From assembly GCA_007844125.1 (NCBI GenBank), contig CM017568.1:5042685-5106684 (forward strand): DNA of 64,000 nucleotides, given 5' to 3'. This DNA comes from Sinonovacula constricta (taxonomy: Eukaryota; Mollusca; Bivalvia; Cardiida; Solecurtidae). Within the stretch, counting starts at the first letter, position 1, and the number at the start of each line of letters is the position of its first letter. The position numbers and the translations under genes are program-made. Positions 16,621-61,000 of the stretch are shown here, piece after piece. The notes under the pieces are model-generated. The model ran no database searches, had not been told where the DNA came from, and worked only from the letters and a program-made list of their open reading frames with translations.

Positions 16621-17980
16621 GTAAATGATGCGTTACTTGCTGGCCATGTTTTAGTAAATGGTGCGTCACTTGCTGGTCATGTTTTTGTAAATGGTGCGTC
16701 ACGTGCTGGACATGTTTTTGTAAATGGTGCGTCACGTGCTGGTCGTGTTTTTGTAAATGGTGCATTACTTGCTGGTCGTGTTTCTGTAAATGGTGCGTCA
16801 CTTTCTGGTCATGTTTCTGTAAATGGTGCATTACTTGCTGGTCATGTTTCTGTAAATGGTGCGTCACTTGCTGGTCATGTTTTTGTAAATGATGCATTAC
16901 TTGCTGGTCGTGTTTCTGTAAATGGTGCGTCACTTGCTGGTCGCGTTTTTGTAAATGGTGCGTCACTTGCTGGTCATGTTTTTGTAAATGGTGCGTCACG
17001 TGCTGCACATGTTTTTGTAAATGGTGCGTCACGTGCTAGTCGTGTTTTTGTAAATGGTGCATTACTTGCTGGTCATGTTTCTGTAAATGGTGCGTCACTT
17101 GCTGGTCAGGTTTTTGTAAATGGTGCGTCACTTGCTGGTCATGTTTTTGTAAATGGTGCGTCACTTGCTGGTCGTTTTTGTAAATGGTGCATTACTTGCT
17201 GGTCATGTTTCTGTAAATGGTGCGTCTCTTGCTGGTCAAGTTTTTGTAAATGGTGCATTACTTGCTGGTCATGTTTTTGTAAATGGTGCGTCACTTGCTG
17301 GTCAGGTTTTTGTAAATGGTGCGTCACTTGCTGGTCAGGTTTTTGTAAATGGTGCGTCACTTGCTGGTCATGTTTCTGTAAATGGTGCGCGTCACTTGCT
17401 GGTCATGTTTCTGTAAATGGTGCGTCACTTGCTGGTCATGTTTCTGTAAATGGTGCGCGTCACTTGCTGATCATGTTCCTGTAAATGGTGCGTCACTTGC
17501 TGATCATGTTTCTGTAAATGGTGCGTCACTTGCTGATCATGTTCCTGTAAATGGTGCGTCACTTGCTGATCATGTTCCTGTAAATGGTGCGTCACTTGCT
17601 GATCATGTTCCTGTAAATAGTGCGTCACTTGTTGGTCATGTTTCTGTAAATGGTGCGCGTCACTTGCTGATCATGTTCCTGTAAATGGTGCGTCACTTGC
17701 TGATCATGTTCCTGTAAATGGTGCGTCACTTGCTGATCATGTTCCTGTAAATGGTGCGTCACTTGCTGATCATGTTCCTGTAAATGGCGCGTCACTTGCT
17801 GATCATGTTCCTGTAAATGGCGCGTCACTTGCTGATCATGTTCCTGTAAATGGTGCGTCACTTGCTGATCATGTTCCTGTAAATGGTGCGTCACTTGCTG
17901 ATCATGTTTCTGTAAATGGTGCGCGTCACTTGCTGATCATGTTCCTGTAAATGGCGCGTCACTTGCTGGTCATGTTTTTG
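16621..17980. repeat. 33-bp minisatellite, about 41 units
   Basis: Unit: GTAAATGGTGCGTCACTTGC followed by TGGTCATGTTTTT. Since 33 is a multiple of three, both strands stay open for long stretches (apparent MTHHLQKHDQQV repeats), but these frames break wherever a 2-base GC insertion makes a 35-bp unit (around 17389, 17456, 17656, 17921). Two blocks are visible: TGGTCATGTTT(T/C)TG units up to about 17465, and TGATCATGTTCCTG units (creating TGATCA) from there to about 17950. Some 5' units carry CACGTG. Confidence 0.97.
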
Positions 17981-20215
17981 TTGTATGTGTTGCATGTACA
18001 TTGGGACAGTTTTGTGCCACTTAGTGGTGCCAAACACCTTGAGACAATTGGTTCATATTAAATGACTACATTGGAAGGCTGTGCCTGTACTTTCCTTGTG
18101 TTTGAGGAAAGAGTGTTTTTCTTGTTGATGACAATAAAAGCGTCCACTAATTGTTAAGATTATTGATATGCTACATGATATTAATTGTATTATACACCAC
18201 TTATATTATCAGATAACAAATAAAAAACATTAATATGCTCAATAACTGCAGTTTTGTTGCTATGTATAGTAGTTCTGGATCAAATATTTAACTGACTTTG
18301 AATTTACTTAAGTGTATATTGTAAAATAGAAGACAAACCAATAGATTCCTAAAAAAACATCTTTACTATCAGATAACACACATATTTTAAGATTCAGCAT
18401 AGTAACCATTAACACCTGATGTGAAGATCATAGCATCCTATAACATCAATCTGCAGGTTAATCGAAGCAACCAATAACACCTGTTTGGAAATGTTTCATG
18501 GTAATCAATGTCACTTTGCAGAAATCTATGCCACCTAAAGTAGTCCTTATTTTCAAACAACTGAAAATAATGTACATAAAATGCAATAATTACATGTTTT
18601 AAGATTGAAATTTGTTCCAACAGCTACGTAAATAACAAATTTGTAAGAATATTTTTAAAAATAAAAAATATAAAAAATGACATCACGAACAACATAAAAT
18701 AAATTAAAATGAAAAACAGACCTCAGTCACATGCATAATGAGATTCAATTTTATCACAAAGCTATTGGTGTGAAAATCTACACATAAAGATACACAAAGT
18801 AACAACAGCTTTTATAACCATGCTTGGTCTAACATTACAAAGTGCATATCCATCCACATGTGTGCCTAATTATGTGATTTACAGGATTATCACACTTTTA
18901 ATAACATCTGAGAAATATGACATAGTCAAGGCGGGATATACAACATCTAATCAAAAGATTTTGATCTAACTAGATTTAATGTAGAAGCAATATTTGTTTA
19001 TACCAAATGACTGGTAATTTTTTGTGATAGATTATTCAATGCAGGAATGGTTGAGGAATAAAGCTGGACCTTTACCCAATAATATCAATTCCACCAAGTT
19101 TATGTGTATATAAACAATAAGGAGTATTTTATGATTTAATTATAATTAAAATTGCACAAAATAATTGACAGAATAAAAAAGTTTACCGAAACAAATCTAG
19201 TATACATAATACATATCTACAGCATTTCACTGGTTTAAAGTGATTCTACAATAAACGAATCACGAAGATGATAGATCAGCATGATCTAAAAAAAAATAAT
19301 AAAAAAAAGTTTCTAATGTTTCTCATATTGCAGTGAAATGAGGTTCAAACTAAAATAAAAATATAATCGGCTATAAACAGAACAATTAATATAAATATTG
19401 CTGAGCGAGTTCATAACAAAAAGTATTATAAATAATATCCTTACATTAATAAGTTAAATAGGAAGTTGCTAAGTACATATTGACACAGCTTACAAAAATA
19501 GCTTTGATAAAGCTCTGCCAGCTCCCTGCTTGGAGCAGTCTGTTCAGGATATACACAATACCAGCCGTGTCCCTTGCAATACGTCTAGCACAAGTTGGAA
19601 GTTGATGTAAGGAGAAAACAAAGACTTATAAACAAATGTAACAAGCTAAGGAACCATCATACATAGATCTAAACGGTAAAACATTCACAACAATGGCTGC
19701 ATGTCTATATCAAACAAGACTAATTAAAGCATACACAATTTCATAGTTTGAATCTAACTAAAACAAATGAATGTGAACAAGAAATACTGGGATCATATCT
19801 GAGCAGGGGATTGTGTTTAAATCTTTGTCTATAAAAGGGAAGTCAGATGACACACAATAATACTGCCAACATGGCATCAAACTCAGTTGTGAAATATCTA
19901 TTTATGGCAATAAACAGAAGAATTGTTTTACTTTGGTAATAACATAAAAACTGGATTTCAGCAAACATTTTATACAATAATTGTGTCTTTTTAAAACATT
20001 AAAGATTTATCAGTCAAACCAGACAACAAACAGTATAGTATATACCCTTACAACTTTGTTAATCTTCCAATCATATATACCAGTAAGTGAAACCAGTTGA
20101 CAGTTTCAAGTGCATGCAGTTAACAAGCAAACTGATGCATTATCATATCAAAACAAAATATTTATTTTGACATCAAGAAACAATAAAAAAATAAATGTGT
20201 CAATTCAAAGCTGCA
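17981..20215. other. AT-rich spacer, no gene recognised
   Basis: Contains CAATAAAAGCG near 18131, a possible polyadenylation hexamer, and otherwise AT-rich sequence without coding similarity on either strand. Confidence 0.4.
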
Positions 20216-21985
20216 AACAACATTAATAGAATGTGCTGACCCAAAACTAGAAACAAAAGACAATAGAATGTCCTGACCCAAAGCTAGAAACAACAGACAA
20301 TAGAATGTGCTGACCCAAAGCTAGAAACAACAGACAATAGAATGTGCTGACCCAAAGCTAGAAACAACAGACAACAGAATGTGCTGACCCAAAGCTAGAA
20401 ACAACAGACAATAGAATGTGCTGATCCAAATCTAGAAACAACAGACAATAGAATGTGCTGACCCAAAGCTAGAAACAACAGACAAAAGAATGTGCTGACC
20501 CAAAGCTAGAAACAACAGACAATAGAATGTGCTGACCCAAAGCTAGAAACAATAAACAAATGAATGTGCTGACCCAAAGCTAGAAACAACAGACAATAGA
20601 ATATGCTGACCCAAAGCTAGAAACAACAGACAAAAGAATGTGCTGACCCAAAGCTAGAAACAACAGACAATAGAATATGCTGACCCAAAGCTAGAAACAA
20701 CAGACAAAAGAATGTGCTGACCCAAAGCTAGAAACAACAGACAATAGAATGTGCTGATCCAAATCTAGAAACAACAGACAAAAGAATATGCTGACCCAAA
20801 GCTAGAAACAACAGACAAAAGAATGTGCTGACCCAAAGCTAGAAACAACAGACAATAGAATGTGCTGATCCAAATCTAGAAACAACAGACAAAAGAATAT
20901 GCTGACCCAAAGCTAGAAACAACAGACAATAGAATATGCTGACCCAAAGCTAGAAACAACAGACAATAGAATGTGCTGACCCAAAGCTAGAAACAATAGA
21001 CAATAGAATGTGCTAATCCAAATCTATAAACAACAGACAAAAGAATGTGCTGACCCAAAAGTAGAAACAACAGACAAAAGAATGTGCTGACCCAAAAGTA
21101 GAAACAACAGACAAATGAATGTGCTGACCCAAAAGTAGAAACAACAGACAAATGAATGTGCTGACCCAAATCTAGAAACAACAGACAATAGAATATGCTG
21201 ACCCAAATCTAGAAACAACAGACAATAGAATATGCTGACCCAAATCTAGAAACAACAGACAATAGAATATGCTGACCCAAAGCTAGAAACAATAGACAAA
21301 TGAATGTGCTGACCCAAAGCTAGAAACAACAGACAATAGAATGTGCTGACCCAAAGCTAGAAACAACAGACAATAGAATGTGCTGACCCAAAGCTAGAAA
21401 CAACAGACAATAGAATGTGCTGACCCAAAGCTAGAAACAACAGACAATAGAATGTGCTGATCCAAATCTAGAAACAACAGACAAAAGAATATGCTGACCC
21501 AAAGCTAGAAACAACAGACAAAAGAATGTGCTGACCCAAAGCTAGAAACAACAGACAATAGAATGTGCTGACCCAAAGCTAGAAACAACAGACAATAGAA
21601 TGTGCTGATCCAAATCTAGAAACAACAGACAAAAGAATATGCTGACCCAAAGCTAGAAACAACAGACAATAGAATATGCTGACCCAAAGCTAGAAACAAC
21701 AGACAAAAGAATGTGCTGACCCAAAGCTAGAAACAACAGACAATAGAATGTGCTGATCCAAATCTAGAAACAACAGACAAAAGAATGTGCTGACCCAAAA
21801 GTAGAAACAACAGACAAATGAATGTGCTGACCCAAAGCTAGAAACAAGACAATAGAATGTGCTGACCCAAAGCTAGAAACAAGACAATAGAATGTGCTGA
21901 CCCAAAGCTAGAAACAAGACAATAGAATGTGCTGACCCAAAGCTAGAAACAAGACAATAGAATGTGCTGACCCAAAGCTAGAAAT
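20216..21985. repeat. 37-bp minisatellite, about 48 units
   Basis: Unit: ACAACAGACAATAGAATGTG followed by CTGACCCAAAGCTAGAA. Variant classes recur: 'ctgatccaaatctag' units near 20420, 20755, 20867, 21452, 21607 and 21748; 'caaaagaat' units; and 'aaaagtagaaacaacagacaaatg' units around 21050-21160. Similar runs of variants recur in the same order, indicating higher-order duplication. The last four units (21840-21985) are a homogeneous 34-bp form lacking three bases. It lies downstream of RIC3 in a region with no recognised exons. Confidence 0.97.
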
Positions 21986-31200: not shown

Positions 31201-34200
31201 ATTATAAAATAGGATGAATAGTAGTTTTGAAAGGCAGACATAAATGAGCTAACATGATTTGGTTTATTGTCTTATTATTACAGTACTTTTTTTATCTAGT
31301 TCAAAGAGTCCTTCTTAGTGTTAAGTATTCATTGGTCAACACTGGCAAAAACTTTTACTTATTATTCCATTATGAAATGGCTTTATGCTACAAGTGTTTT
31401 TACTGTTGTTTTTTTACAAAATTATCCTTAAACCTAACCCTACTTAATTCTTAATTACCTATACTTATAGGTAGCTTCTTTTTTGAGTAAACTCAAGAAT
31501 AGAGACTGAAGCAAAACAGTTCAAAATAAGAAGTACATGGCAAAGAAGACTTGCCACAACCTTCAGCATCAACTACTTGTTGGGCCCAACATTAATCCAA
31601 ATAAACTGATAACTACTGGTTCAAACCTGTCAAAATTATAACATAGATTATGCCGAAATTTACAAGTAAAATTGTGCCAATCACAATGTATACTAAAACC
31701 ACCATTTAATCTACAGGTACCAAGACCCAGCGCACAGTCAGTTGAGCACTGAATTACCTACCATACAAAGGACCAATGTTTTCATTTTTACAGAAACTAA
31801 TCTTTTTTTAAAGTTTTTGTTTAGTAACATGTATGTCTTTTTCTTTCTTTTTTTCAAACTAGCAGATTCTGAGTTCCATTTATAAACTAGATTTTTAGTT
31901 TTAGGTTTAAACCACAGATCATTCACAATGGTTATAAAACAAAATGCCTGCCAGTGTTATTGTTGGTTAAAGCTCGAAAGGATACAATATACAAATCATC
32001 TAGACATACTGCCAGAGATGTGGCAGGAAAGAAAAGTACAGTTCCTGATCAGACAATACCCAGCAGAAACTGGCTGGTTAGAATCAGGATCTACACTATG
32101 TTGTATATCATTTTGTACAAAGTGTTTTCCAACCACCCTAACATAATACCCTACCATTAAGTGTTAACTCACCACCCCTACATAATACCCTACCATTAAG
32201 TGTTAACTAACCACCCCTATATAATACCCTTCCATTAAGTGTTAACCAATCACCCCTTTATAATACCCTACCATTAAGTGTTAACCAATCACCCCTTTAT
32301 AATACCCTACCGTTAAGTGTTAACCAATCACCCCTTTATAATACCCTACCATTAAGTGTTAACCAACCACCCCTACATAATACCCTACCATTAAGTGTTA
32401 ACCAACCACCCCTACATAATACCCTACCATTAAGTGTTAACCAATCACCCCTTTATAATACCCTACCATTAAGTGTTAACCAACCACCCCTACATAATAC
32501 CCTACCATTAAGTGTTAACCAACCACCCCTACATAATACCCTACCATTAAGTGTTAACCAACCACCCCTACATAATACCCTATCATTAAGCGTTAACCAA
32601 CCACCCCTACATAATACCCTACCATTAAGTGTTAACCAACCACCCCTACATAATACCCTACCATTAAGTGTTAACCAACCACACCTACATAATACCCTAT
32701 CATTAAGCGTTAACCAACCACCCCTACATAATACTCTACCATTAAGTATTAACCAATCACCCCTATCTAATACCCTATCATTACGTGTTAACCAATCACC
32801 CCTACCTTAAAAAGAGTATAAACCAGGTAGATGACAATGCCTATAGCGTACATCGGCAGGATAATACCCATCATCCCGCGGCCAGACCCCTTGCCTGACT
32901 GGCGACTCTGTTCAGCAGATGCAGCTCTCATCCCAGGATGAGGACCTTGCTGTAACACAACAAAAAGGACAAGTGTAAATATTTCTTGAGTTTTTACTGG
33001 CATTTAGATAACACTTGGTTTTTAAACCCTTAAGAGGTAGTCCAGTGGTGTGAGCATGTTAGGTGGGCTATATATTGCTATCAATGTCATCAACATAGTA
33101 GACATTGGACAGTTGGTTATGTTTGTCTATCCAATCAGCGTACAGCACAGAAGCACATGCTTTCCGTATGTGATACTGATTATGAAACTGGTATGAATAG
33201 AAACTGTCTAAATATCAATGGGAAGGAGTTTAACACAAATTGTACAGCCGAACATGGTTCACTTTAAACTGCCTTGAAAGTTTGTTTTGTAATTGGTTAA
33301 AATGTGTACAGGAAAGTATAGAATGACATTACAATAATATCACTTTGATAAGTATGTTAACAAATAATCAGTTGATGGCCCATTCCACCTTACTCTAGTT
33401 CATTGTAAGTGTTGAGCAAACACTTACACGAAAACTTTTAGCCTGTTCGTGCATTTCTTGGGCTTTCTGGCTCAGGTGTGGATGCCTATCTCTCAGTGGT
33501 GGTGGGACAAAATCTGAAAAATACCACAGTATATATATATAGCTATGTAGCTATCATATTTCCATACTTGTAAAGTATGTCAAACTAAAGCTCCTGCCAT
33601 TAGTTTGTCAACAATTTTAAACAGTTCTCAAACATATGTATTTTTGTAAAATAAATAGAATAAAAAAAAGAGTTATCCCAATCTATATTTATACTAACAA
33701 GTGGCCATTCATACAGCTACACTGATGCCAATCATACATCCTGTTCATTTCCATTTCATCAGCAAATCTCGACCTTATTTTTAATGAGTTACATTTTTTA
33801 ACATTACTGTGTTACTTATACCACAGATTATTGTAAAATAAATATAAAAACAATGTGAAAATTATTGTTCAGGCACTTAAAAAATCAAAAGAATTTGAAT
33901 TTAGATGTTATAGAAATAATTTATCGGAATTTTTTGGAAAAAATATATTTTTTCTCTTCTGTCAGCTTAGATTTTTCAAGACACAACGGCAAAAAAATTC
34001 AAAACTGTTTAAGTTATTTCAAATTTACATGAAATTTATGTGAATCAAATACTGATCTAAATATTTATAAGGTCACACAACATACAATTTATACATGCGT
34101 TACTTTTAAAAATATAATGAAGTTTTCAGAATACTGTTTTTAATATTAAAATAGCTTTTATCACTGCAAAATGTTTAACATCAAATGTACCAAAACTTTT

Positions 34201-40541: not shown

Positions 40542-40676
<135 letters not shown>

Positions 40677-41046: not shown

Positions 41047-44000
41047 ATGTACACCGATCACGTTCTGTCTACTCAAAAATTGAAGGAAATATGTTATTAA
41101 GCAGGCCCTGTGTCACGGTCTGGTGTTCTTCGGTGCTTATATTTCTCTGTCTTCTCAAGTGTATCTGGACAAAATGTTTACATTTTAATGGTTTTATTAA
41201 ACTGATAATGGAGGTCTTATAATGCGAAGACATAAACCTTTAGCAACCTACTCTGTTATTGAAAATTAGTTCAAATTCTTCAAAAATATGCCCAAACTGG
41301 CAAACACATAATTTCCTTGAGTTGGATCATAAAATGCAACTAGATTACATTTGTAGCTCCGTTTTTCCACCGGTCGTCGTTTGTATATATTGGGGGAGGG
41401 GGTGTTGCTGTCCTAGCGCAATTTTTCAGCAGACAACCATTGCAGTATCGTCTGATATTATTCTTTATACATATATATAAATATATATTAATGATGTCTG
41501 TTGGGTGTTCGAGAGTGTGTTTCGCAAAAATTCGATGTAGAGTATTTATTGAAGTCACAACTAAAATTCGTCTTTTAAAAAAGTACCAAAATTTCCAGTC
41601 CGTGGAGCCTTCAATAAATAGTGTAGCAAACAAAACAGTACTGATTTGCCACTAAGACTTTATTATGTGTTAGACCAGACAAAATAGGCTACAACTGCCA
41701 GTAAATAATGTAGATTGATAGACAGATTTATTTCGCTATGGAATGCATGTACATGGACATTTAAAACAACATGTACGGTACAAATATAACATCCATGAGA
41801 ATAAATAAGCCATGACATGCACACCAACATTAGGGATAACACAAAAATAGAGAGGCTCTTATTTCCATTGTGGTCCCCTGTAAAACAAACAAAGTATAAC
41901 CAAGCCTGTTCAAATTATGATTTTTTTTTCTCTCTTAACTATACATTAGAATTACGGCACATCAAACAAGTTAAGCGTTTATTAAAACTTGGACCGAAAT
42001 ATAACAGATTGTGCACACGTTATCAAAGTATCGTCGTGTTCCAGTACACTGTTCATTTGGATTTAAGAATAAAATCATTACCACAATCGCTAAAGCATAT
42101 TATTGATGAGTGTAACAGTTAAGTCTCATAAAAACACTGATAATAATATCAGATTTTCTTTTCTGATCATATGCCGACTTCAAGAGAGTGATTTTGTCTG
42201 CTTTTGTTTTAAATGAGATTCTGTCCACCTATGCTAAAATGAACGGAGGGGGTTTTGTCCGGGAGATATTTCGTAATACAAATGCTAGAACAATTGCCAC
42301 TGTTTATGTTTTTATTTTGCTCGGATATAACTTGAAATTGCATTTTGCTCTATTCTATTTTGGAATCAATCTCAAAGCTTGACCTCAATATATTTTCGTA
42401 ACTCACAATAAATCTCCTTATTATAAAACAACAAAATTCCTGTTCGCATCTTCCAACCATTTTGTCATGGCCTGAACAAAAAACTTTAAGTACACAGTAA
42501 AACTACTGTTTCCCTTCATTGGGATGTAAGGTCACAATCAAAACACATCGGCTAATAACATCTGCATCGTCGCCAAGGAGTGCAGATAAAGCTCGTTAGT
42601 GGGGCAGTTGACATCGAATGTTATGCTCACAGTGGATGTTGTACACGAGTCAGATGGCCTCATGGGTCTGGCTAGCAATATGGGAGCCCGAGTGGCTGCT
42701 TGGGCATTCTACAAAATTTGTGTGATCAGACCATTTCTCAAAAAATATAGTCGAGAAAAAATGTATGACCGGGCCATCTGGGGGTGGGAGGGCCTCCCTT
42801 GGACACTGTGTTTAGCTTGAGAAGTGGTGTGCTAGTGATCTGCTGTGCGGTGTCGTCACACGTACTGTTTGAACAGTTTTACTCAAGAATTGTCTGTTAC
42901 AGTTATGTTATGTTAAAATGTGATAATTTTCGTAGAATGTATGAATATAAAATGTTTTATTGGTATTTTACGATACTACCGAATAACTGCTTTGAAATGT
43001 GATATTATCACTTATAGTATTTACTAATTATAATTTAAAAATGATTTGCCTTCTAGCATACATGCAAATAAGTTTCAAAATCGTGTTAAGTCTTAACATC
43101 AACAGGTGTATAAAAATAAAGGGCGGGTTTATGTTCGCCTTTAAAATTTTAGGTCGGAGTTTTTTATCCGCACTGTAGCTTTGGTGGGAAGCTTTTTGTA
43201 CGCGTGTACAAAAGTCAGAGGAGGGTTGTTGTCCTGGGTGGTTTTTGTTCCTGCTCGAGTTGTTGCAACAATGTTCGAAGCACATGCACAGTAAAAAAGG
43301 CGAAGAACACTTAAAAATCAAGGATAGCGGATACAGTATTTATCATTGTTAAGCATTACGTGTACAAATCCATCTCGTTATCAGATTTTCTTCCCTTGTC
43401 TACACTTCTTGAAACTTTTATAACAAAAGAGATGTTTATACAACGATTCACATTTAAAAACTTAACCAATCCTTAGGTCATTCCTTCTGGATAAAAAGGT
43501 GAAAAAGGTGAAGGTGAAATAATATGTATCTATGCTCTTTAGCAACTTTTACAACTATAGCTCCTGATCAATTTTTCCCCGTTACCAAATGTACAGTGTG
43601 CCACGTTGTCTATTCCCAAAGACCTAAGTAACAAAGACCTGTTCCATACAAACTGGTGTATATGTCTCTTTTGGGGAACCCCTTTTTGGCAGATGAAAAT
43701 GTTGGGATTTTAAAAGACAGTGTAATTAACAGTGGACTGTAACAAAAATCATTTCAGTTTTGATGTAGCGTATCCCTAAAATTGAGTTCGGTTTGGGCGA
43801 GTCAATTGAGATTAAATTGTATTAAACTTTTAAACGTAACTTTCCTTATCTCAGGTCGGCATTAATGTACGAGGTCATTTTTTACTGATATAAATACTTA
43901 TTTTTGTACCATAAGCTTGATTAATCTTCCTCTGACCTATCGCCCTATGCACATAGGGGTACATTGGTGAAATGGAAATTGTCTCCCTTGTTAGTTAATA

Positions 44001-44081
44001 TCCGATTATTATATATATTCAAAACAGTAGGTAGGTCCTTTCAGTTGAAATTCTTGGACTTTATCGCCTGCTCTTTTGTAA
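41047..44081. other. RIC3-to-Naiad spacer, no gene recognised
   Basis: AT-rich, with short random open frames (up to about 100 codons) that show no domain, no splice-supported structure and no biased composition. Confidence 0.4.
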
Positions 44082-44105
44082 GATATTGCAATTACAAACA
44101 GTGAA

Positions 44106-44791
44106 ATGTCTTACTTTTGCATAAATATAAGCTTAAAACCATTTAAATATTTAAAGAGACTTAACGTTCCTAGTAGTAATGTAAAGAATTCCCCCGCACA
44201 AATGCAAAGTGGACATAATGTGTTCTTTAATATCTACAAGTGTAATTATAAAAGATGTAGTACATGTAGATTCCTTAACTGTAACTCCACTGTCAAGTCT
44301 ACTGTAAATGGCCGTACATTTAACATTTCCTTACCTTGTGGTGTTGATTGACAAAGTAACAACGAAACCATACTAACTGTAAACTGCAGTACGTTGGACA
44401 AACGGAGCGGGCGCTTAAAATTAGATTTCGAGAGCATTCATATAAAATCCGTAACGCTCGTCGTTTTAAGAACTACCTTTATAATAATTTTCTAACTACA
44501 GGACATTCTTTAAAATATGTGAACATACAACCTTTGCAAAAAATTGTTTTCGATGACGATGTTTCTAAAGGATTTAAATTACAGGCCAGATACAGTGCCG
44601 AACTTGATTGGATTAAAAAACTTCAGACTCCATTTCCACTCGGTCTAAATGACAATATTTATCAGGCGGGCAATATTTCTAAAAATTCGAACATTGACAT
44701 CTTTAGTATTCTATCTTTACGCAAGTGCAAACGAGGATCTCATGGAATCATAATCTTTCTTAAACGCAGATTTAGGAAAACAGTTTCTATT
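44106..44791 (+). pseudogene. Naiad GIY-YIG endonuclease segment
   Basis: The first part is 44106-44348 (ATG SYFCINIS...NISLPCGVD), a UGA at 44349-44351, then SNN. A small deletion follows, and the frame resumes at about 44378 with CKLQYVGQTERALKIRFREH and ends ELDWIKKLQTPFPLGLNDN...RGSHG. The Y-V-G and R-x-x-x-H motifs of the nuclease are present. The IYLITC-type strand before QYVG is damaged. The frame is closed by a TAA (44792-44794) at the start of a 19-A tract. Confidence 0.75.
44349..44351 (+). other. In-frame UGA, candidate selenocysteine 1
   Basis: GVD-UGA-QSNN in the nuclease domain. Related Penelope-family nucleases commonly have a Cys before (K/Q)SNN or (K/Q)SSN. The local frame is open on both sides for a short distance before a deletion. 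Confidence 0.45.
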
Positions 44792-44792
44792 T

Positions 44793-44811
44793 AAAAAAAA
44801 AAAAAAAAAAA
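44793..44811. repeat. A19 homopolymer inside the element
   Basis: Nineteen A residues interrupt the nuclease-to-linker coding region. The protein similarity continues on the far side in another frame. Confidence 0.95.
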
Positions 44812-45666
44812 GAATATATGACAAAGTGAACACACTTTATATTCGATCTGGTATTCACGCCTTACTTTGTACAGTTACCAATCTACCCTTGAAATCACTA
44901 GTTATTTTGGACAATGAGGCAGATAAAATATATTTACGTACTCATCCTTTAAATGAGGTGGCTTCCATCATTCAAAAGTATACTACCCATGCTTTAAGAC
45001 TTCATATAGATAAACAGACTCAACATAAACGACATTTCATGACATTCAAATACATTAATAAAGGGATTGATTTTATCGACGTACCAAGTATCTTTTGGGA
45101 CAAAAATATCATCAATAAAATCCCCAGTTACTTCGAAAACAAAGAAAACACAATGATTTGTTATAAGTACCAAAAACCCATTAGAGGTCTTATTTTTAAT
45201 TACAACCAAACAGTAGGCAGACCTTAACCTAAATGACCCTTCTCAAGATTCTTGTAACTGTTCAACTTCACCTTTCTGTTATTTACCTTCTGGCCATATC
45301 ATTACTGGGGATTTAAACATCATCGATGACTATAAATTGAGAAAAATACTCTTTAAGGGTCCGAAATATCACCTGCCAGATGAAATAGATTTTGACCTTT
45401 GTTGCAAAGAAATTGCTGATGCAATTAATCTGTTTGCCGATCGCTGGTGTAAGAGAGAAAACACGGATACAATAGCACTTAATACTTGGAAGAAAGCCAT
45501 TTTTAAGATAATAAAAAATCGCGTTAAATTCTACCGCTCACATCCTTCTAGTTTACCTAAGAAACCTTTTTATCACTTAAAACATCTAAAACAGTCCTTT
45601 CAGAATATTCACGAGAAATTTGTACTTGTACCTGCAGACAAAGCTTCAAACAACATAATTTTTGTC

Positions 45667-45669
45667 TGA
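45667..45669 (+). other. In-frame UGA, candidate selenocysteine 2
   Basis: NNIIFV-UGA-RLYYINVL. In related Penelope RTs this spot, right after the PADKAxNN-hydrophobic block and before (K/R)xxYI, is a conserved Cys. The frame is clean for more than 85 codons on both sides, so this is the best of the three internal UGAs. Confidence 0.6.
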
Positions 45670-46560
45670 CGACTATATTACATAAATGTACTGAGTGCTG
45701 AGTTATCCACCACCAGTTCTTACTCTTGCACCAACCTTGACTTTCAGACAGACATTGACAAACATAAACAGATATTGCATAATTTCAATATCAAAACAGA
45801 ATCAAAGCAAGAAAAACTTCCTTCCTTGTACTGGATTCCTAAGCTTCACAAAACACCATACAAGTCACGATTCATAGCTAATGCCAGCTCTAGCACCACC
45901 ACTCACATATCTAAACTACTTACGTCTTGCATTAACAGCCGTTCGCAATCACGTTGTTAAATATTGTGAAAAAGTGTATGAAATTTCAGGAATTAACATT
46001 TTTTTTGGTCTATTAAAAATTCTTCAGAAGTCTTAGACGAGTTTCCTACTTTAAACTTTCATTGCTCTGCAGTTAATACTTACGATTTCTCTACGCTGTA
46101 CACTTCTTTACCTCATTATTTAATTGAGACCAAATTGATTGCTCTTACTGAGAAAACATTTGCTCGCAAGCAACGTCTATATATTGCATGTCATGATAGT
46201 AATGATTTTTTACCAACACTTTCTTAGAAAAGTTTACTATGTGGACTTGCACGAATGTTTGTGAAGCTTTACGTTTTCTATTAGACAATATTTACATAAA
46301 ATGCGGTGACACTTTATTTAGACGAGTAATTGGTATCCCTATGGGAACCAACTGTGCACCATTATTTGCAGATTTGTTTTATACTGCTTTGAACGTGATT
46401 TCATGTTAATTTTATCCCCTTCAAACCAAAGCCACATTATGAGGCTTTCAATTTAACGTCACGCTATCTTGACGATATTCTAACTATAGATAATCCTTTC
46501 TTTTCTCAAATGATCCATCTGATTTACCCTCCAGAACTTACCCTTAATAAAACAAATAAC

Positions 46561-46563
46561 TGA
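46561..46563 (+). other. In-frame UGA, candidate selenocysteine 3
   Basis: LNKTNN-UGA-HLNAAFLDIEI, between RT motifs C and the FLD block, in a frame open for over 170 codons downstream. The aligned residue in relatives is variable rather than clearly Cys, so this UGA could also be a decay mutation. Confidence 0.4.
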
Positions 46564-47141
46564 CATTTAAATGCAGCATTTCTAGATATTGAGATTAATA
46601 TTTCCAATGACGGCGTCTCTACTAAAATCTATGACAAGAGAGATGAATTCAACTTTAGTATTGTGAATTATCCATACCTTGATGGTGATTCACCTCATGC
46701 TACCTCCTATGGTATTTACATATCACAACTTACAAGGTTTGCACGAGTTTGTACTAGAGTAGAAGATTTCAATGCTAGAAACCTGTTTATTTCTTCTAAA
46801 CTGTTACAGCAAGGCTTTCGTTTTCATAAATTAAGAAAGGCGTTTTCAAAATTCTTTCACCGCAATGGTTTTATTGCTTCTAAGTATAATAGCAGTATGA
46901 AAACACTTATGCAGAAAGGCATAAGCCATCCTGCATTTTATGGAAATGTTTTATACAAGTTAAAGAAGATCAAGGGTCTCAATAACTTTTCTGACCACTT
47001 TACAAAACTTATCAGAAAATGTATTGCAGACGGTTACAACCCGGGAATCCTTCGATGTACTGCATTGCTTGCATGAATTGACCCTTTTACAGTCAAGAAC
47101 TTGCATTGCTTTTAAATTACACGATGACCGGACAGGTCGTT

Positions 47142-47205
47142 GAGACTATATGAAAACAGTGGCTTAAAGCCATAATTGTACAGTCACTGTTGGATTTCTT
47201 GTCTC
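47142..47205 (+). ncRNA. SECIS-like hairpin downstream of the Naiad ORF
   Basis: It fits eukaryotic SECIS architecture at every step. Helix I is GAGAC (47142-47146) with GTCTC (47201-47205), then an internal loop of 3 and 5 nt. The non-Watson-Crick quartet is ATGA (47150-47153) opposite GGAT (47192-47195), giving U-U, G-A, A-G and A-G. Helix II is 10 bp (47155-47164 with 47182-47191). The 17-nt apical loop starts T-AAA, so conserved A's lie 12 nt past ATGA. It begins 27 nt after the TAA at 47113-47115. The spacing (ATGA-N12-AA-N24-GGAT) is inside the usual range. Confidence 0.7.
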
Positions 47206-50200
47206 TTATTCTCTCCAGTCGTGCCCTATATAGGTGGCACAACTTGAGCAGTCTCCATACCCTTTACGTGAGATTGCACAGTAGGTATAACATCGGGATT
47301 TTTTTGTACCTTTATCATATATAATATGTCAACTGCGGATAAATCCTCGGCGTTTATGATATGTTTTTTTTTAAACGTATTAACTCTAAACAATACTACG
47401 TTTTATTTTGTTGATTTTCTAAAATTCTATTATTTCTTCCGTTTTATTTACATTTCACTTTTGACACTTTTGGCATATGACGTCATGGCATTTATGACGT
47501 CATTATATGGTTCTTATAATATATCAGCGCTTGTACTGCTTTATTTTATTTGAGACTACTCTCTCATTTGGAATTTTTTGGTTGCCGAGGCTTTTATCTA
47601 CTGTACATACTGTACATATGTTGTTTTATTACTAGTTATTATATATGTACATAAGTTCATTATATCTGTTTTAACTCCCGATGCAGGTGCTTACTGTTAG
47701 TTGTGTTACTTTGACGGGATATTTTTATTTACACTGTTTGTTTGATAGAAAAACCTTCAGGAAGTGCGAGGTTGGAGCGCTCCACAAACCAGGTTTAAGC
47801 ACCCCAGTTGGCCCTTTTGCCGACTGACCGTTCCAAGGCGTTAACTGATAGTTTTTCTTTTTGTGTGTTATGTCGCGTTTCTGTGTGTTTTTTTTGTCAC
47901 ATTTACATTTACCTTGTTTGCCTTTGTCTACAGGTAGATAAAATTTAAATATCTGTGAAAATTTTGATAGGACCTTTTCTTATTTACCTATTGTTATTTC
48001 AAAAAGAAAAAGGAAGTGTCTGTTGATGATGGTTAACCTGGGTATCACAAGAAAAGCAGAAAAGTCAACATACACTCCAAAGAGCACAAGCATAAAAACC
48101 GAGTAAAACAAATGAAAGGGCCTACTTTAGGGAATATTCAGGGGAGACTATTCATTAACGTCGTCTCTTATTGAACGTGTTAAAAGAACCGGACGAGACA
48201 CTTGCGGTGACTGAAAATAAACGTTCAACCGGAAGCAGGAATATCAAAATGGCGCATTTTTCAACGTTCGATTAAAATACGGTTTAGTCCTAGGAAGGAG
48301 GTATGCTAACACAATTAACCACGTGATTTCTGTTTTGTAAAAATAACTTGACATTTAATAAGACAAGTTGGAATGCTTGGGAGTGAGGTGCTAAATTTGC
48401 AGGAACCAACCCAAATATCTGTGGAAATAAGAGTTTTAGACTGTATAAAAGTATTAAAACATTAGAACTTTGAGTTAACCTGTTAAGAGGGATAAAAGTA
48501 TTCGACTGAGTCAGAACATCAGCTCTTTGAGTCTCAATACTCAAAAAATAAAGTTGTCTCGATCCCTCTGTCAGCAGGCCCATATCTAGTTCCGACCGTC
48601 AATGGCGTCATAACCCTGTTAGAGTTATGAGGTTAGCATATTGAGTTTCCCAACCAGAATTTATTTAAATTAAGAATTGACAAAAACTGATAACAAGTGG
48701 AGTGGAATACTAGGAAAACATAATTTGGTATCAATTCTGAGACTAGCTTTGATCCAGAAATTTTCAACTGAGGGACACAAGACGATGGTCAGAAGCCGAG
48801 AAGGGTTTCTGGAGCATGCTCTGCCTGACTTTTTTATTTGTTTCTAGAATGCCAGACAGACTTTTTTGAGATTTTTTTAAACAAAATTTGGATATTTTTA
48901 AGGGAATTATTAAATTGACTCTGAACCAGACAGATAAAACTTAGAAAACTTAGAAAAAACATAAAATTTTCATGTAACCAAGGTTACATAGTTTTGTCAA
49001 ATGTGCCCAGTTTTATCTGTCCTTCCCCAGTTGTTCTATGTAGCAAAACCAAAATTTAGTTCAGTCCCCCCAGCTGACACTATACATACTATTATGTTAT
49101 TATGCTAATCAACTGATAAATTATTATTCGTAACTATCCTTCAAATGCTAAATGCATATAAAAAAAGGTATTTGCAGACATGTGATCTTTCCCGATTTCC
49201 ACGGAAGACTCCCAATATCAAGTGTCTGTCTCACGCTGAGCACATCAATTTCCCTGCTTTGATGTTGCCGACAGACTTAATCTCACTCCTCCTAAAGAGC
49301 TAGCTACCAGCCTATCCTTTGATTGTGCAATATAACCTACTGCAAGTGACCAGCACCTGCATGTGTATTTGTGCAGCTAATTAGAACAGATCACTGCTTA
49401 TCATCGAGTGTTCATTGGTCAAGAAAATAATTTCGTGCCCCGCCTACAGGTGTAAGAAAGCAACCATCGCAAACTGTAATCCCTTGATTGAATGGCAGAT
49501 ATCATGCCCAATCAGTGTCACATGTTCCATTTTCTAACACAACACTGTTGAAAAAAAAGCAATGCTTAACGTATGGGCGGACACAGGTATTGGACTGAGC
49601 TTCGAAATTTTAAATGTTCTATGACCCGTTAATAGAGTGCTATGAGAACTATTTTGTATTTACCTAAATGCAAGCTCAGGATATTTAGACTGAATGTCAG
49701 AATTCAGAAACGTTTACCTACCGACCCGCATACATGCCTTACAAAAAAAACACAACTAGTGCTAATTATATGTGTGAAGTCATTGAATCATAGTGCCAAT
49801 TAGTCAGCCAACGACAGCATTTGTTGAAACTGATGCGCTCTTGTGTACTCATAAAACTTACTCTTGTATTGATTTTCTTTTTCTTAAACCATGACTGCTG
49901 TATAATTTTTACTACCGGTATGTTAAGGTTAGTGTCTAAATTAGTGACTCATCCTGGAATTAGAAACCAAAGGGAGCGAACAAAGTAAGCATGGTTTCTT
50001 TTCCATGAATATATGACAAAGGCACAGGACAAAGGTATTCGTGTGCATGCCAAATGTAAAAGTAAATATGTGATGAGTCATTTAACAAAATGAGCAAACC
50101 CAACAGTGACCGCCTTGGAATGGTCAGTCTGCAAAAGGGACCGACTGGAAGAATCACCAGTTTAGACTCAAAACTTATACTAAGAACATGTTGCTTGTAA

Positions 50201-55025: not shown

Positions 55026-58000
55026 GTGAGCAGTTAAACTACTTGTGTCAACTTTTTTAATATTTGCTTTATAGTGGAATAAACTGGCTTAAGATTAAAC
55101 ATAAAGTTTGCTGTTGCCTGTGTGCCCCACAGTTAAGGTATTGAAGTCTTTAAGTTGAACTTTGTCACTTAGTCTTTGTCAGATTCACTTCATAGGGGAC
55201 AAGGACTTTAACTCTTACATGCCCAGTTTTTGAAAGAGCCCTTTTGTTAATTTGCTTGTCTGGAGCTTAAAATGGCAAATATCGGTATATTTCAGATTTG
55301 CTTTAGTCTTACCAGTAGAATATAGGTAGCTTAAGTGGGCTTCTATGTTTCATATCCGTTGCAAATTTACATTAGAATAATAGGAACTGTATGATGAGAC
55401 AGAGTGCAAAGAACAATAATTATTATCTGTGCATTTGTTAATTATCTTCAAATAAAATTTTGAAATAACATGATTTGACTTGCTAATTCAGTTTTTGCAT
55501 GTACCCTTTGTAGTTTCCAAAAAAAAAGTTTTACAGTAAATTACAGATAGGACCCAGACACATCATATGCCAGCAGGAAGATCTCACACCAAAAAATGTT
55601 GTTTCAACCAGGATTGAAAAATTGTTGACTAATTTGGTGTTAAAGTGTCAAATATAAAGATGTTTTTATGGCATTGAAGGGTTGCATTTTACATCCTACA
55701 GTCCACTGTCTTCCCCATTTCCTTGTCACAGCCACAACTTCCATTATTTACAGTTCTTTAATCAAACTTTACCATCTTACTGACATATACTTGCAGATTG
55801 TCATGCAACCAGTTAGATAAAGGTTAGTTTAAATTATAAATTATAAATGTCTACTATTTGTAATGAGAGATGATCCACAATTGTCCATTATTACACTATA
55901 AATTCATCATCAAGGGCAATGTGTATGTGCTGCACTTGTACTGCTGGAATGTAAATATAACAACAAATACCCAAAATAGGAGAAATGACAAGCGCATGAC
56001 TTGATGAACACAGCGCAAGTCTTGCATCATAGGATAATATCCTAATTTGTTTCTAATTTCAGAATCCAATACCAATTGTTTAAAGTACAAAGCACAGTGT
56101 CAAAGGTAATACATCAATTGTGAAATATATTTTTTAATAGCTTATATTGTAATTTTTATAAAAATGTTCTTTTTAGCTCACCTAAGTACAATGTGCTCAA
56201 GGTGAGCTTTTCTGATACTTCTTTGTCATCCTACAGGCAACAGTTTTTATCCAATCTTCATGGATCTTGGTCAGAATGTTTGTCTGCAAGAAATCTTGGA
56301 CTTGTTCTTAGTATTTTACAGCATTTAACAGGACTGAAATGAGCTCCCGGCTTTTGACGCTCGAAAAAACAAAAATACCCTTTAATGTTTTAATTTTGCA
56401 CAGCAATAAAGCAACAGGGGTCATTTTGACACGTGTCAATACAATAGATGGAGTCTGCATATTAATAAAAACCAGGTGCTCTGGCGTGCTAATTTCAATA
56501 TGGTGTTTTTACAGAGGTGTAGAAAGGTAATAAACAATAATTGATCAGCATCTCTTTACTAGTAAAGAAAGTAGCACCCTGTTGCATCAGAAGCAATTAA
56601 ATGACCGTAGGCATTGCTTAATTCCTTGACTGTGACACCTGAATGTGCGATTACTAAAAAGGTGCAAAGCTTTTTTTAATAATTCGTAATAATAGTCATT
56701 GTTGACAGTGAATTACAACTGTGCACATTATATGGCAAATCCATATTACTTTTTACGAAAGTTGATAGGTCTTCGAGAGATATTTACTGATGTGCTAGTA
56801 ACTTAAATGGTTGAAATTACAGCTCAGAAAAGCTTGTTTGATGTAGGATTTGGAGAGGATCTTAAACATAGAAATAATAGGGAAAGTTTGTGCAGCACAC
56901 CAACTAAACAGGGAAAGCCAGAAGCTGAAGATGGAACCTCAGTATCAAGTAAAACGAGAATTTAGGACTTACTGGTTAATAGTTTACTAGTTGCTAGAAA
57001 CCAGTGAACAAGATTTACAAGTGTTATTGTTCTGTTCTTGCTGTCACTGTTCCAAAAAGGATAATCCATTTGCCAACATCAGCCACTTTCAAAAAAGTGC
57101 TCCAGACAGACAAGCCAACAAGAATCCCGATTACCTTGAGTTAGCCAATGCCCTTATCCTTGTACAGTGTAAAAAAAACAACTGGATATATTTCATGTTC
57201 ATTCAAACATGTGAAAATTCAAAGTCAAGGTGAGTAGAAGATTTATAGTTATTCAGTACACCATTTGTAAGTACATAATATATACCAGTATTAAAGCCAA
57301 TGCAATTGACACTGGACCGGACCTGGTAGCGCAATTAGTAGAGCGTCGGCTCCAGGTACGGGAGGCCTCGGGTTCGATCCTGGGCCGCAACACACCAAAG
57401 TCGTTAAAAATGGTAGTGGCATAGCTCCCTTGCTAACGCTCAAGCAAATATAAGGGTAGTTCCACGAGTGGTTGGCCCAGTGTCAGGATAATGTGACTGG
57501 GTGTGGTATCATGCCAGGTGTTCACGGCATGTAGTTCCACGAGTGGTTGGCCCAGTGTCAGGATAATGTGACTGAGTGTAGTATCATGCCAGGTGTTCAC
57601 GGCATGCTATACACTTTGAAGGCAGCACTATATCTGCTTCAAGTGGACACCATCTCCAGATAACTGAAATACTGTTGGTGGGCCGATAAACCCAATAAAC
57701 AAACAATTGACATAGTGAATTTAATAATTGTCACAGTGTATCCAACAATTGTCACACAACAGTTGTCACAGTGTATTCAACAAGTGTCACAGTGTATCCA
57801 ACAAGTGTCACAGTGTAACCAATAATTGTCACAGTGTATCCAACAATTGTCACAGTTTGTCCAACAGTTGTCACAGTGTATCCAACAATTGTCACAGTGT
57901 GTCTAACAATTGTCACAGTGTATCCAATAAGTGTCACAGTGTATCCAACAATTGTCACAGTTTGACCAACAATTGTCACAGTGTATCCAACAATTGTCAC

Positions 58001-61000
58001 AGTGTATCCAACAATTGTCACAGTGTATCCAACAATTGTCACAGTGTATCCAACAATTGTCACAGTGTATCCAACAATTGTCACAGTTTGTCCAACAATT
58101 GTCACAGTGTATCCAACAATTGTCACAGTGTATCCAATAAGTGTCACAGTTATCCAACAATTGTCACAGTTATCCAACAATTGTCACAGTGTATCCAACA
58201 ATTGTCACAGTGTATCCAACAATTGTCACAGTTATCCAACAATTGTCACAGTGTACCCAACAATTGTCACAGTGTATCCAACAATTGTCACAGTGTACCC
58301 AACAATTGTCACAGTGTATCCAATAAGTGTCACAGTGTATCCAATAAGTGTCACAGTTATCCAACAATTGTCACAGTGTACCCAACAATTGTCACAGTGT
58401 ATCCAATAAGTGTCACAGTGTATCCAATAAGTGTCACAGTTATCCAACAATTGTCACAGTGTATCCAACAATTGTCACAGTGTGTCCAACAATTGTGTAT
58501 CCAACAATTGTCACAGTGTGTCCAACAATTGTCACAGTGTATCCAATAAGTGTCACAGTTATCCAACAATTGTCACAGTGTATCCAACAATTGTCACAGT
58601 GTATCCAACAATTGTCACAGTGTATCCAACAATTGTCACAGTGTATCCAACAATTGTCACAGTGTATCCAATAAGTGTCACAGTTATCCAACAATTGTCA
58701 CACTTATCCAACAATTGTCACAGTTATCCAACAATTGTCACAGTGTACCCAACAATTGTCACAGTGTGTCCAACAATTGTGTATCCAACAATTGTCACAG
58801 TGTATCCAACAATTATCACAATTTGTCCAACAATTGTCACAGTGTATCCAACAATTGTCACACAATTGTCACAGTACCCAACAATTGTCACAATGTATTC
58901 AACAATTGTCACATATCATAAATCATTAAAACAAACGTGAATAGATGTATGAATTATGAACAATAATTTTCTTTTAATTTGCAACACCATTTCAGATTAG
59001 TGGTCATGCTTTAAGTCAATGTTGTTGCTATATTGATTTGGGACTCAAATCAGTACTTATATCTACATTATATAATACACAAGGTCGTAAATACTTATAT
59101 AAGAATACGACGCAAGCAGGTATTGCAAAAACAATAAAATGCAGCTTCATAAAAGTTACAAAGAAACAAATTTTATAACATTATTTCTAATAGATGTTTT
59201 TGATTTTGCATTTAAAATTTATGTTTTGAGTTATTTATTTACTACATTTTTATGATGTTACACTATGTAAAAGGTCATATAATTATAACTACTGTTATAA
59301 CACACTAAATATGTGCAATATAATAAAAATGAAGTCTATACTAGCATAGATCACTCAACAGTTTGTGAATCACATAAAACATTCAAATGTGTAATAGTTC
59401 AAATATTTTTTTTAGTTTTTCTTATTTAAAATTGTAAACCTCAGAGCTCAATTTGTAACCATAATATAACAATTACTGTGGTTCGTTAACATTAGTTTGC
59501 TATCAGAGTAAGCAATTATATGTTGTCCATTTATTTTAAATTCACAGTTTCAAATGTTCCGTTTTTAACATTGGTACATAAAAGTATTTAATGTCTATTA
59601 ATTCAGGAATTGTAAATATGCTAGGGATTGAACAAGGGAAAAAATACAAACATGTAATTAAGTTAAAAAATAAACTTAGCCTTTTTATGAAATGAAGCAG
59701 GAACCTCTTGCAAGGCAGTCCAATGTTCTACTATTGATAAAATTCTTATTTTGTGTTTCAGGAAGCTCAGTTGAGAATAGCTGACTTTGTTGTTTAGAAC
59801 AACCTTCCTCTCAGAAACCACAACAAACTTACCACTTTGCAGCAAGATGGGTGCCTTATTCTTCAGAACTAGTCATATTGTCATTCACAAGAAACTGAAC
59901 ATCTATTTCAAATGCTTTAAAATTTATTCAACAGAGACTGTAGTACACTTTGTAGATTGTGTCAGTGTAGTCAATGGCAAGGCAGAGACATTAGTCGCAG
60001 CCATTAAAGATGCTTGTGCAATGTTAGGTCTGGACATGATGAGGGTGATTTAAATGGCAAGTGATGGGGCAGCAGTCATGACTGGCCATAAGGGTGGCGT
60101 CGGTGCCCTCTTCAGAAAAGAAAACTCTCACTTAGTACAGGTGCACTGTGTTACCCACTGCCCTGCATTGTGTGCAGGTCAGGCCTGAAAGGAAACTCCA
60201 TCATTTACAGACCACCATACGGCTGTGAAGAATGTGTTCCACTACTTTCACAATTCAGCAGTGCGTTACAACACACTACAAGCGATGGAAAGTGATGACA
60301 AAGGTGACGCGTACATGACACTGAAAGAGCTTTCTTTAGAAGTAGCAGTCAAGGTCATTCACTAGGTCTACCCAGCACTGGTAATGGCATTGGATTCAGA
60401 AGCTGCAAACAGAAATGCTGAAGCAAAAGGAATCTTGAAATCTGTTAGGAGTGCTGGATTTATTCTCTGGACTGCCTTCCGTGTTCACTGGTGTCAATAA
60501 ACCTTGCAAGCTATTTCAACAGGATGAATTAAACATTGACACTGTGAACGTTGATGTTAGTGCCACTGTTGATACCATTAACAGTTTCAAGGTGAAAGGT
60601 GGGGGTTGTCTGGGAGATGTTTATGAGTTCCAGAGTGAAGGAAAATATAGAGATGTTAAGGTAGTGGATACAGCCTAGGCAAGGATGAATGTCCACTTCA
60701 GTGCTGACATTTACATAGATAGTCAGATGGAAAATATAAATGATCAGTTTGAAGAGGAATCTAAGGACAAGCTAGCAATTGTGAACAGCATACTGAACCC
60801 TGACAAAGTTGCCTACAACAACTTCTGCCATTGTTGAATACAGAAAGAAGAACCTGGAGGATGTCATAAAATGGCTTGGGCCATTTGAGGGGCATTGTAG
60901 ATTGGCTAAGCCAGACAGGATGAGAGGGGACCACCTTCAGTTCAAGGTGACCCTGAAGAATATGCATGGAAGATCATTGTCCGGTATCTGTGCTACCATT

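Follow-up and report, generated by a model that had tools for sequence, protein, structure and literature searches.

A dead copy of a permuted Penelope-like retroelement in Sinonovacula constricta, whose intact copies very probably encode a selenoprotein

The copy in the window and its genomic copies

The window, a stretch of 64,000 nucleotides of Sinonovacula constricta, contained one copy of a multi-copy retroelement, truncated at its 5′ end and broken in frame (Table 1). Over the aligned ORF, this copy was 97.3% identical to one intact copy. Within its ORF part, 2921 bases could be aligned, with 79 mismatches and 11 indels; nine of the indels break the frame, as expected from a preliminary description that had called the copy decayed. 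Compared by blastn with the tandem intact copies at another locus (L010), positions 44159-44791 matched at 93.8%, 44827-47622 at 96.9% and 47640-47992 at 94.1%. The copy in the window is dead. The same description had proposed the order GIY-YIG endonuclease, CxC linker and reverse transcriptase (RT), which was confirmed by tblastn and by the folds of the intact protein. It had also reported in-frame UGAs, and these were found at codons 140, 578 and 876 of the intact frame.

Table 1. Features of the element copy, in positions of the window
Feature	Position	Strand	Basis or remark
Naiad-like element copy, 5′-truncated, frame-broken	44159..47992 (approximate)	+	blastn to L010
GIY-YIG endonuclease domain, approximate limits	44250..44660	+	tblastn
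In-frame UGA codon 140 (intact-frame numbering)	44349..44351	+	Cys in Cys-type relatives
Deletion junction damaging UGA codon 151 in this copy	44363..44364	.	alignment to other copies
YVG, the YIG part of GIY-YIG	44390..44398	+	
CxC motif Cys-Asn-Cys, codons 440-442	45253..45261	+	
Reverse transcriptase domain, approximate, indel-broken	45550..46730	+	tblastn; telomerase-like fold of intact protein
In-frame UGA codon 578	45667..45669	+	invariant Cys column in Cys-type relatives
YLDD motif of RT	46465..46476	+	
In-frame UGA codon 876	46561..46563	+	mostly Ser in relatives
TAA termination codon	47113..47115	+	matches TAA of intact copies
SECIS element, Rfam RF00031	47142..47205	+	40.6 bits, gathering 35
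3′ region, pseudo-LTR-like; lies between consecutive ORFs in tandem copies	47206..47992	+	L010 tandem period; head-to-tail junctions

The genome searched comprised 1.22 Gb in 177 contigs. Positions 44082-47205 of the window matched at least 39 other genomic places at 95-97% identity, which is a lower bound, 40 of the 5652 first-look candidates having been scored (43 rows, including the copy itself and three short pieces of places already counted). Matches lay on contigs C1-C19, which measure 35-97 Mb. Eight fetched copies were open end to end, up to a TAA, if TGA is read as a residue; seven of the frames had 1058 codons and one had 1062. Among these eight, seven carried TGA only at codons 5, 140, 151, 578 and 876. 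As the first ATG is codon 10 of the intact frame, the UGA at codon 5 probably belongs to the 5′ UTR, which leaves four UGAs within the protein. Copy L008 (contig C9, about 6.80 Mb) had an otherwise open frame with two extra private UGAs, at codons 690 and 728. A protein search of the same genome gave 46 rows, all filled by one family, that of the window element; 14 rows covered 1-1058, and 11 of these had neither TAA nor TAG.

Two perfect TGACGTCA palindromes, 17 bp apart, lay at 47478-47502, within the element's 3′ region. We take them to be CRE/ATF-like. At least one TGACGTCA was present in 19 of the 20 fetched loci (none in L009), mostly at the matching place as judged by eye. Since the 3′ region precedes the next ORF in tandem copies, the TGACGTCA region could be promoter sequence.

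Elsewhere, the window held long minisatellite arrays at 16621-17981 (33 bp x 41), 20206-21984 (37 bp x 48), 32120-32805 (39 bp x 18) and 57702-58862 (21 bp x 57), three of which yield long repetitive open frames, and a (TC)n dinucleotide run, perfect over 127 bp, at 40545-40671. The open frame at 1379-2056, which holds a 51-bp tandem repeat, weakly matched the RNase_T exonuclease family (23.7 bits against a cut-off of 24, E 8e-5); a second match was Exuperantia-like. Another open frame of 267 codons (8372-9175) resembles a membrane transporter exon and had no Pfam match at 0.01.

Conservation of the UGA codons, selection and the SECIS element

The preliminary description anticipated UGAs at the same columns among the copies. 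This was the case in an alignment of 22 rows (two reference copies and 20 others): codon 140 was TGA in all 22 rows, codons 151 and 578 were TGA in 21 rows each, and codon 876 again in all 22. The exception at codon 151 was the copy in the window, where the codon is damaged by a deletion. Single UGAs were lost in decayed copies (AGA at 578 in L018, TGG at 876 in L035). Across the 20 copy rows, one of 79 UGA cells was changed, compared with 423 of 20842 codons. The copies are young, so UGA conservation within the family is weak on its own, and the UGA columns showed no clear advantage over other codons. We therefore rejected it as sole evidence. Both the intact copies and a sister subfamily (dS about 0.16) carried UGA at these positions, and not TGT or TGC.

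Two copies of the sister subfamily, L033 and L034, were likewise open, with 1058 and 1049 codons in the stretches fetched, and had the same five TGAs. Relative to copy L003, dS was 0.157 for L033 and 0.167 for L034, and dN was 0.018 and 0.020, respectively. Between L033 and L003, dN/dS was 0.29 in codons 10-139, 0.09 in codons 152-577 (binomial P = 5e-16), 0.07 in codons 579-875 (P = 4e-14) and 0.18 in codons 877-1058 (P = 1e-3), and 98 of the 137 differences were at third positions. There was no change in codons 141-150, a segment of ten codons that is uninformative. For the decayed copies L035 and L036, the comparison with L003 gave dN/dS values of 0.59 and 0.32. The low dN/dS after the UGAs implied that the protein downstream of them is translated and kept.

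A SECIS-like hairpin had been noticed after the ORF, and it proved to be a match to Rfam SECIS_1 above the gathering threshold. It lies on the coding strand, 26 nt past the TAA, and its E-value was 8e-6 in the 5.5 kb searched and 1.3e-4 in 90 kb. Scores were 45.7 bits in L003, L006, L015, L025 and L036, and 37.8 bits in L033 and L034. L035 gave no match, but the stretch fetched for it stops 37 bases past the ORF, too early for a complete SECIS. By eye, the elements of L003 and L033 differed at five positions, two of them in the 10-bp stem, where both are still paired as G-U. The core motif GGAU (3′ core) was GGAA in L033 and L034, with the lower score.

Relatives of the element and its class

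Cys-type Naiad-like elements (L029 and L030 in MAG contigs; P0005-P0007) shared the architecture of the window family, aligned with it over nearly the full length at 27-32% identity, and had Cys at columns 140, 151 and 578, where the window family has UGA. L029 and L030, at 30-32% identity, could be aligned in a single stop-free frame, beginning at residue 94/103 and ending at 973/979, and their codons were TGT or TGC at 140, 151, 440, 442 and 578. L031 and L032 also had TGT at column 578. No SECIS was found at gathering in the four contigs L029, L030, L031 and L032. The only columns with Cys in all five Cys-type proteins were 140, 151, 156, 440, 442 and 578, so that three of the four UGAs are on invariant Cys columns. 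The hypergeometric P for this, computed after the fact, was 4e-7 over 1049 columns; it was 1e-6 if columns with Cys in four of five were counted, and about doubled with the 805 columns lettered in all five.

The expectation that relatives have Cys at the UGA columns thus held at 140, 151 and 578 and failed at 876, which is mostly Ser. Column 876 was Ser or Asn in L029, L030 and L031, those with DNA there. Among the best 120 of 3845 relatives, it was Ser in 99, Thr in nine and Cys in two, and the only one of these 120 that stopped at the column was P0114, which is 97% identical. Judged from these sequences, UGA-876 does not replace a Cys, and a gain of Sec from Ser is apparent. The route might have been one C-to-G change, which turns the Ser codon TCA into TGA.

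The Naiad-like RT genes L029-L032 come from contigs recorded as MAGs of bacteria or archaea, and L032, from a Bathymodiolus symbiont record, may be host DNA. Most likely, all four contigs represent eukaryotic contamination.

A stop at column 578 seemed to be widespread. A profile search found 71 related gene-called proteins, and 54 of them ended exactly at residue 577. Such an end means that a stop codon, be it TGA, TAA or TAG, follows at the Sec-578 column. P0004 had Trp at 140, 151, 440 and 578, and also at 339; Trp was present in P0067 at 140 and 151, in P0003 at 578, and in P0020, P0060 and P0063 at 440. These Trp letters at Cys/Sec columns are most likely UGAs that a gene caller read under code 4, the alternative being TGG. 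In a tree of 66 rows, 55 rows with a stop at 578 (the intact copy included) fell inside a 61-row clade with support of 95/86, and the six other rows of this clade had Cys (P0002, P0060), Trp (two) or lacked column 578 (two). The root of this tree is unsure since the Cys outgroups have long branches. Among relatives of the C-terminal half, 13 of the best 120 of 3845 extended to column 578; nine of these had Cys there and four had Trp. This sample is biased to Cys because gene callers cut Sec proteins at 578. Cys and stop have clearly been swapped at this column more than once, so that its history is not a simple one.

Pfam gave no GIY-YIG or RT match for the separate pieces of the window, nor for the intact protein at E 0.1, so relatives and folds were needed to identify the domains. 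A search of the PDB by sequence gave nothing credible, and no relatives were found in viral contigs or plasmids. In the window family, the GIY-YIG endonuclease is N-terminal to the RT. Folded alone, that domain of an intact copy matched I-TevI, UvrC and R.Eco29kI in predicted structure, and the RT of the intact protein had a telomerase-like (TERT-like) predicted fold. Within the endonuclease, columns 151 (Sec in the window family) and 156 were those of invariant Cys in the Cys-type relatives, and His 175, 192 and 198 were invariant or nearly so in a 22-row alignment; these are presumably the published CCHH residues of Naiads. Columns 440 and 442, of the CxC motif, were likewise Cys in all five. 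Locus L010 contained two identical ORFs head to tail with a period of 4145 bp, and the same head-to-tail junction recurred at 11 more of the 20 loci fetched. No hammerhead ribozyme was found at gathering in the window, L003, L006, L015 or L025, nor any weaker match in 43000-48500 of the window. Only one of 17 outer 3′ flanks inspected by eye (that of L014) entered a trinucleotide repeat within 45 bases, so microsatellite targeting was not evident in these flanks.

The RT grouped with proteins that have an N-terminal endonuclease, apart from two outgroup RTs, P0071 and P0072 (98/97, with long branches); P0072, which shows no GIY-YIG, is not proven canonical. P0071, a canonical Penelope-like element by its Pfam order, also joins RT and GIY-YIG in one protein. 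However, its nuclease follows the RT, unlike in the window family, and its RT lies across the 98/97 branch. Naiads are permuted Penelope-like elements (N-terminal EN+ PLEs) with a CxC linker, a CCHH motif, a telomerase-related RT and pseudo-LTR or tandem insertions. They are not known to carry a hammerhead ribozyme and show an insertion bias for microsatellites. Selenoprotein Naiads in clams and spiders were reportedly described by Craig, Yushenova, Rodriguez and Arkhipova in Mol Biol Evol in 2021. In general outline, the window family shares with these the permuted order of GIY-YIG, CxC and RT, the telomerase-related RT, the pseudo-LTR or tandem arrangement and several in-frame UGAs; it differs in that the window copy is dead and in that microsatellite targeting is not evident in the 3′ flanks inspected. 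One weak relative, P0070, carries the name Ruditapes, which fits a clam-like host. The probable membership in the published Naiad clade is supported by architecture and by these features, leaving a slender chance that the family is a permuted Penelope-like element outside the clade, either Chlamys-like or of a new clade. However, the N-terminal GIY-YIG, the invariant CxC, the Cys/His columns of the endonuclease and a host that is probably an animal all fit Naiads. Chlamys elements, whose hosts are algae, spike mosses and slime moulds, are not known to have the CCHH motif.

In the literature searched, to which the 2021 paper did not belong, no paper joined Penelope-like, Naiad and selenoprotein, and the matches listed included no title on selenoprotein retrotransposons. 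The title of the 2021 paper appears among the references of PMC11167929.

Readings of the UGA codons and their meaning

We conclude that the dead copy in the window very probably derives from a permuted Penelope-like retrotransposon with recent activity, whose intact copies have their four UGAs read as Sec via one SECIS. The UGA columns, the SECIS, selection, the Cys columns and the RT grouping all support the earlier proposal of a decayed copy of a selenoprotein Naiad lineage. Intact copies would produce a single protein, about 1049 residues long when counted from the first ATG. Its four UGAs would be decoded as selenocysteine by the host Sec machinery, directed by the single SECIS just past the TAA. 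Three of the predicted Sec residues, 140 just before the GIY-YIG core, 151 inside it and 578 in the RT part, would occupy positions of the invariant Cys of Cys-type relatives, and the fourth, 876 in the RT, a position that is mostly Ser in relatives. Once made at full length, the protein might then nick DNA and reverse-transcribe its own RNA, leaving head-to-tail and 5′-truncated copies.

Could the UGAs be ordinary nonsense mutations in an element that is dying out? Decay is evident in the window copy, with its nine frame-breaking indels, and copies do gather nonsense mutations (11 private stops in the 20 copy rows: eight TAA, one TAG and two TGA). However, these private stops are mostly TAA, whereas the common ones are all TGA, and the same four UGAs recur in copies whose frames are otherwise open, and also in a sister subfamily whose sequence downstream of them is under purifying selection. 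The open UGA-bearing frames elsewhere and the low dN/dS downstream refute this reading, and we give it virtually no weight. Hardly more credible is that the UGAs are true stops and that endonuclease, linker and RT are made as separate proteins by reinitiation. GIY-YIG and RT functions are separable, and relatives are indeed annotated as separate proteins by gene callers, as seen in the 54 of 71 that end before column 578. Against this, L029 and L030 align as one stop-free frame with Cys codons at the UGA columns, and a stop at UGA-151, inside the GIY-YIG core, or at UGA-140, just before it, leaves no nuclease.

Selection indicates that the UGAs are passed, not which residue is inserted. Readthrough with another residue and without selenium, either near-cognate Trp, Arg or Cys or through UGA reassignment, is the alternative that deserves most attention, although we consider it improbable. 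UGA-876 is off any Cys column, and some relatives have Trp letters at UGA columns. However, a SECIS is in the right place in both subfamilies, none reached the gathering threshold in the tested Cys-type contigs, three UGAs are on invariant Cys columns, and the Trp of P0004 at four Cys/Sec columns looks like UGA under code 4. The residue inserted at the UGAs is therefore probably Sec.

Selenoprotein P, which has two SECIS elements, is a host protein, whereas the window family encodes a retrotransposon polyprotein with one SECIS found. Like this family, it has several Sec residues in one protein, for which the abstract of PMC8230778 calls it unique among characterized selenoproteins.

The selenoprotein kind of Naiad is reportedly already known from clams and spiders. 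What the present analysis adds is the fourth UGA, the segment-wise selection across the UGAs, the pairing-preserving changes in the SECIS stem, a probable Sec column that is not a Cys column, and signs of a stop at 578 common to many related families. For annotation, there is a warning that gene callers cut such proteins at UGAs or, probably, translate UGA as Trp.

Retrotransposons that need the 21st amino acid allow one to ask directly why the replication of a selfish element should depend on selenium. If selenium is lacking, most ribosomes would be expected to terminate at codon 140, and the activity of the element would be predicted to follow selenium supply. We tentatively suggest, at slightly less than an even chance, that Sec is old and self-sustaining in a large radiation of elements, and not sporadic. 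On this suggestion, the stop at 578 would be characteristic of most related families found by the search with the N-terminal half, and Cys would probably have returned several times; UGA would have reached the CxC Cys 440 in some families, and 876 would have gained Sec from Ser without an ancestral Cys. Once present, the SECIS would make new UGAs tolerable as sense codons, and selenium supply might act as a switch of transposition. Column 876 provides a test case of Sec gain without a Cys ancestor. With open young copies and a sister subfamily in one genome, UGA decoding, SECIS function and selenium dependence are measurable.
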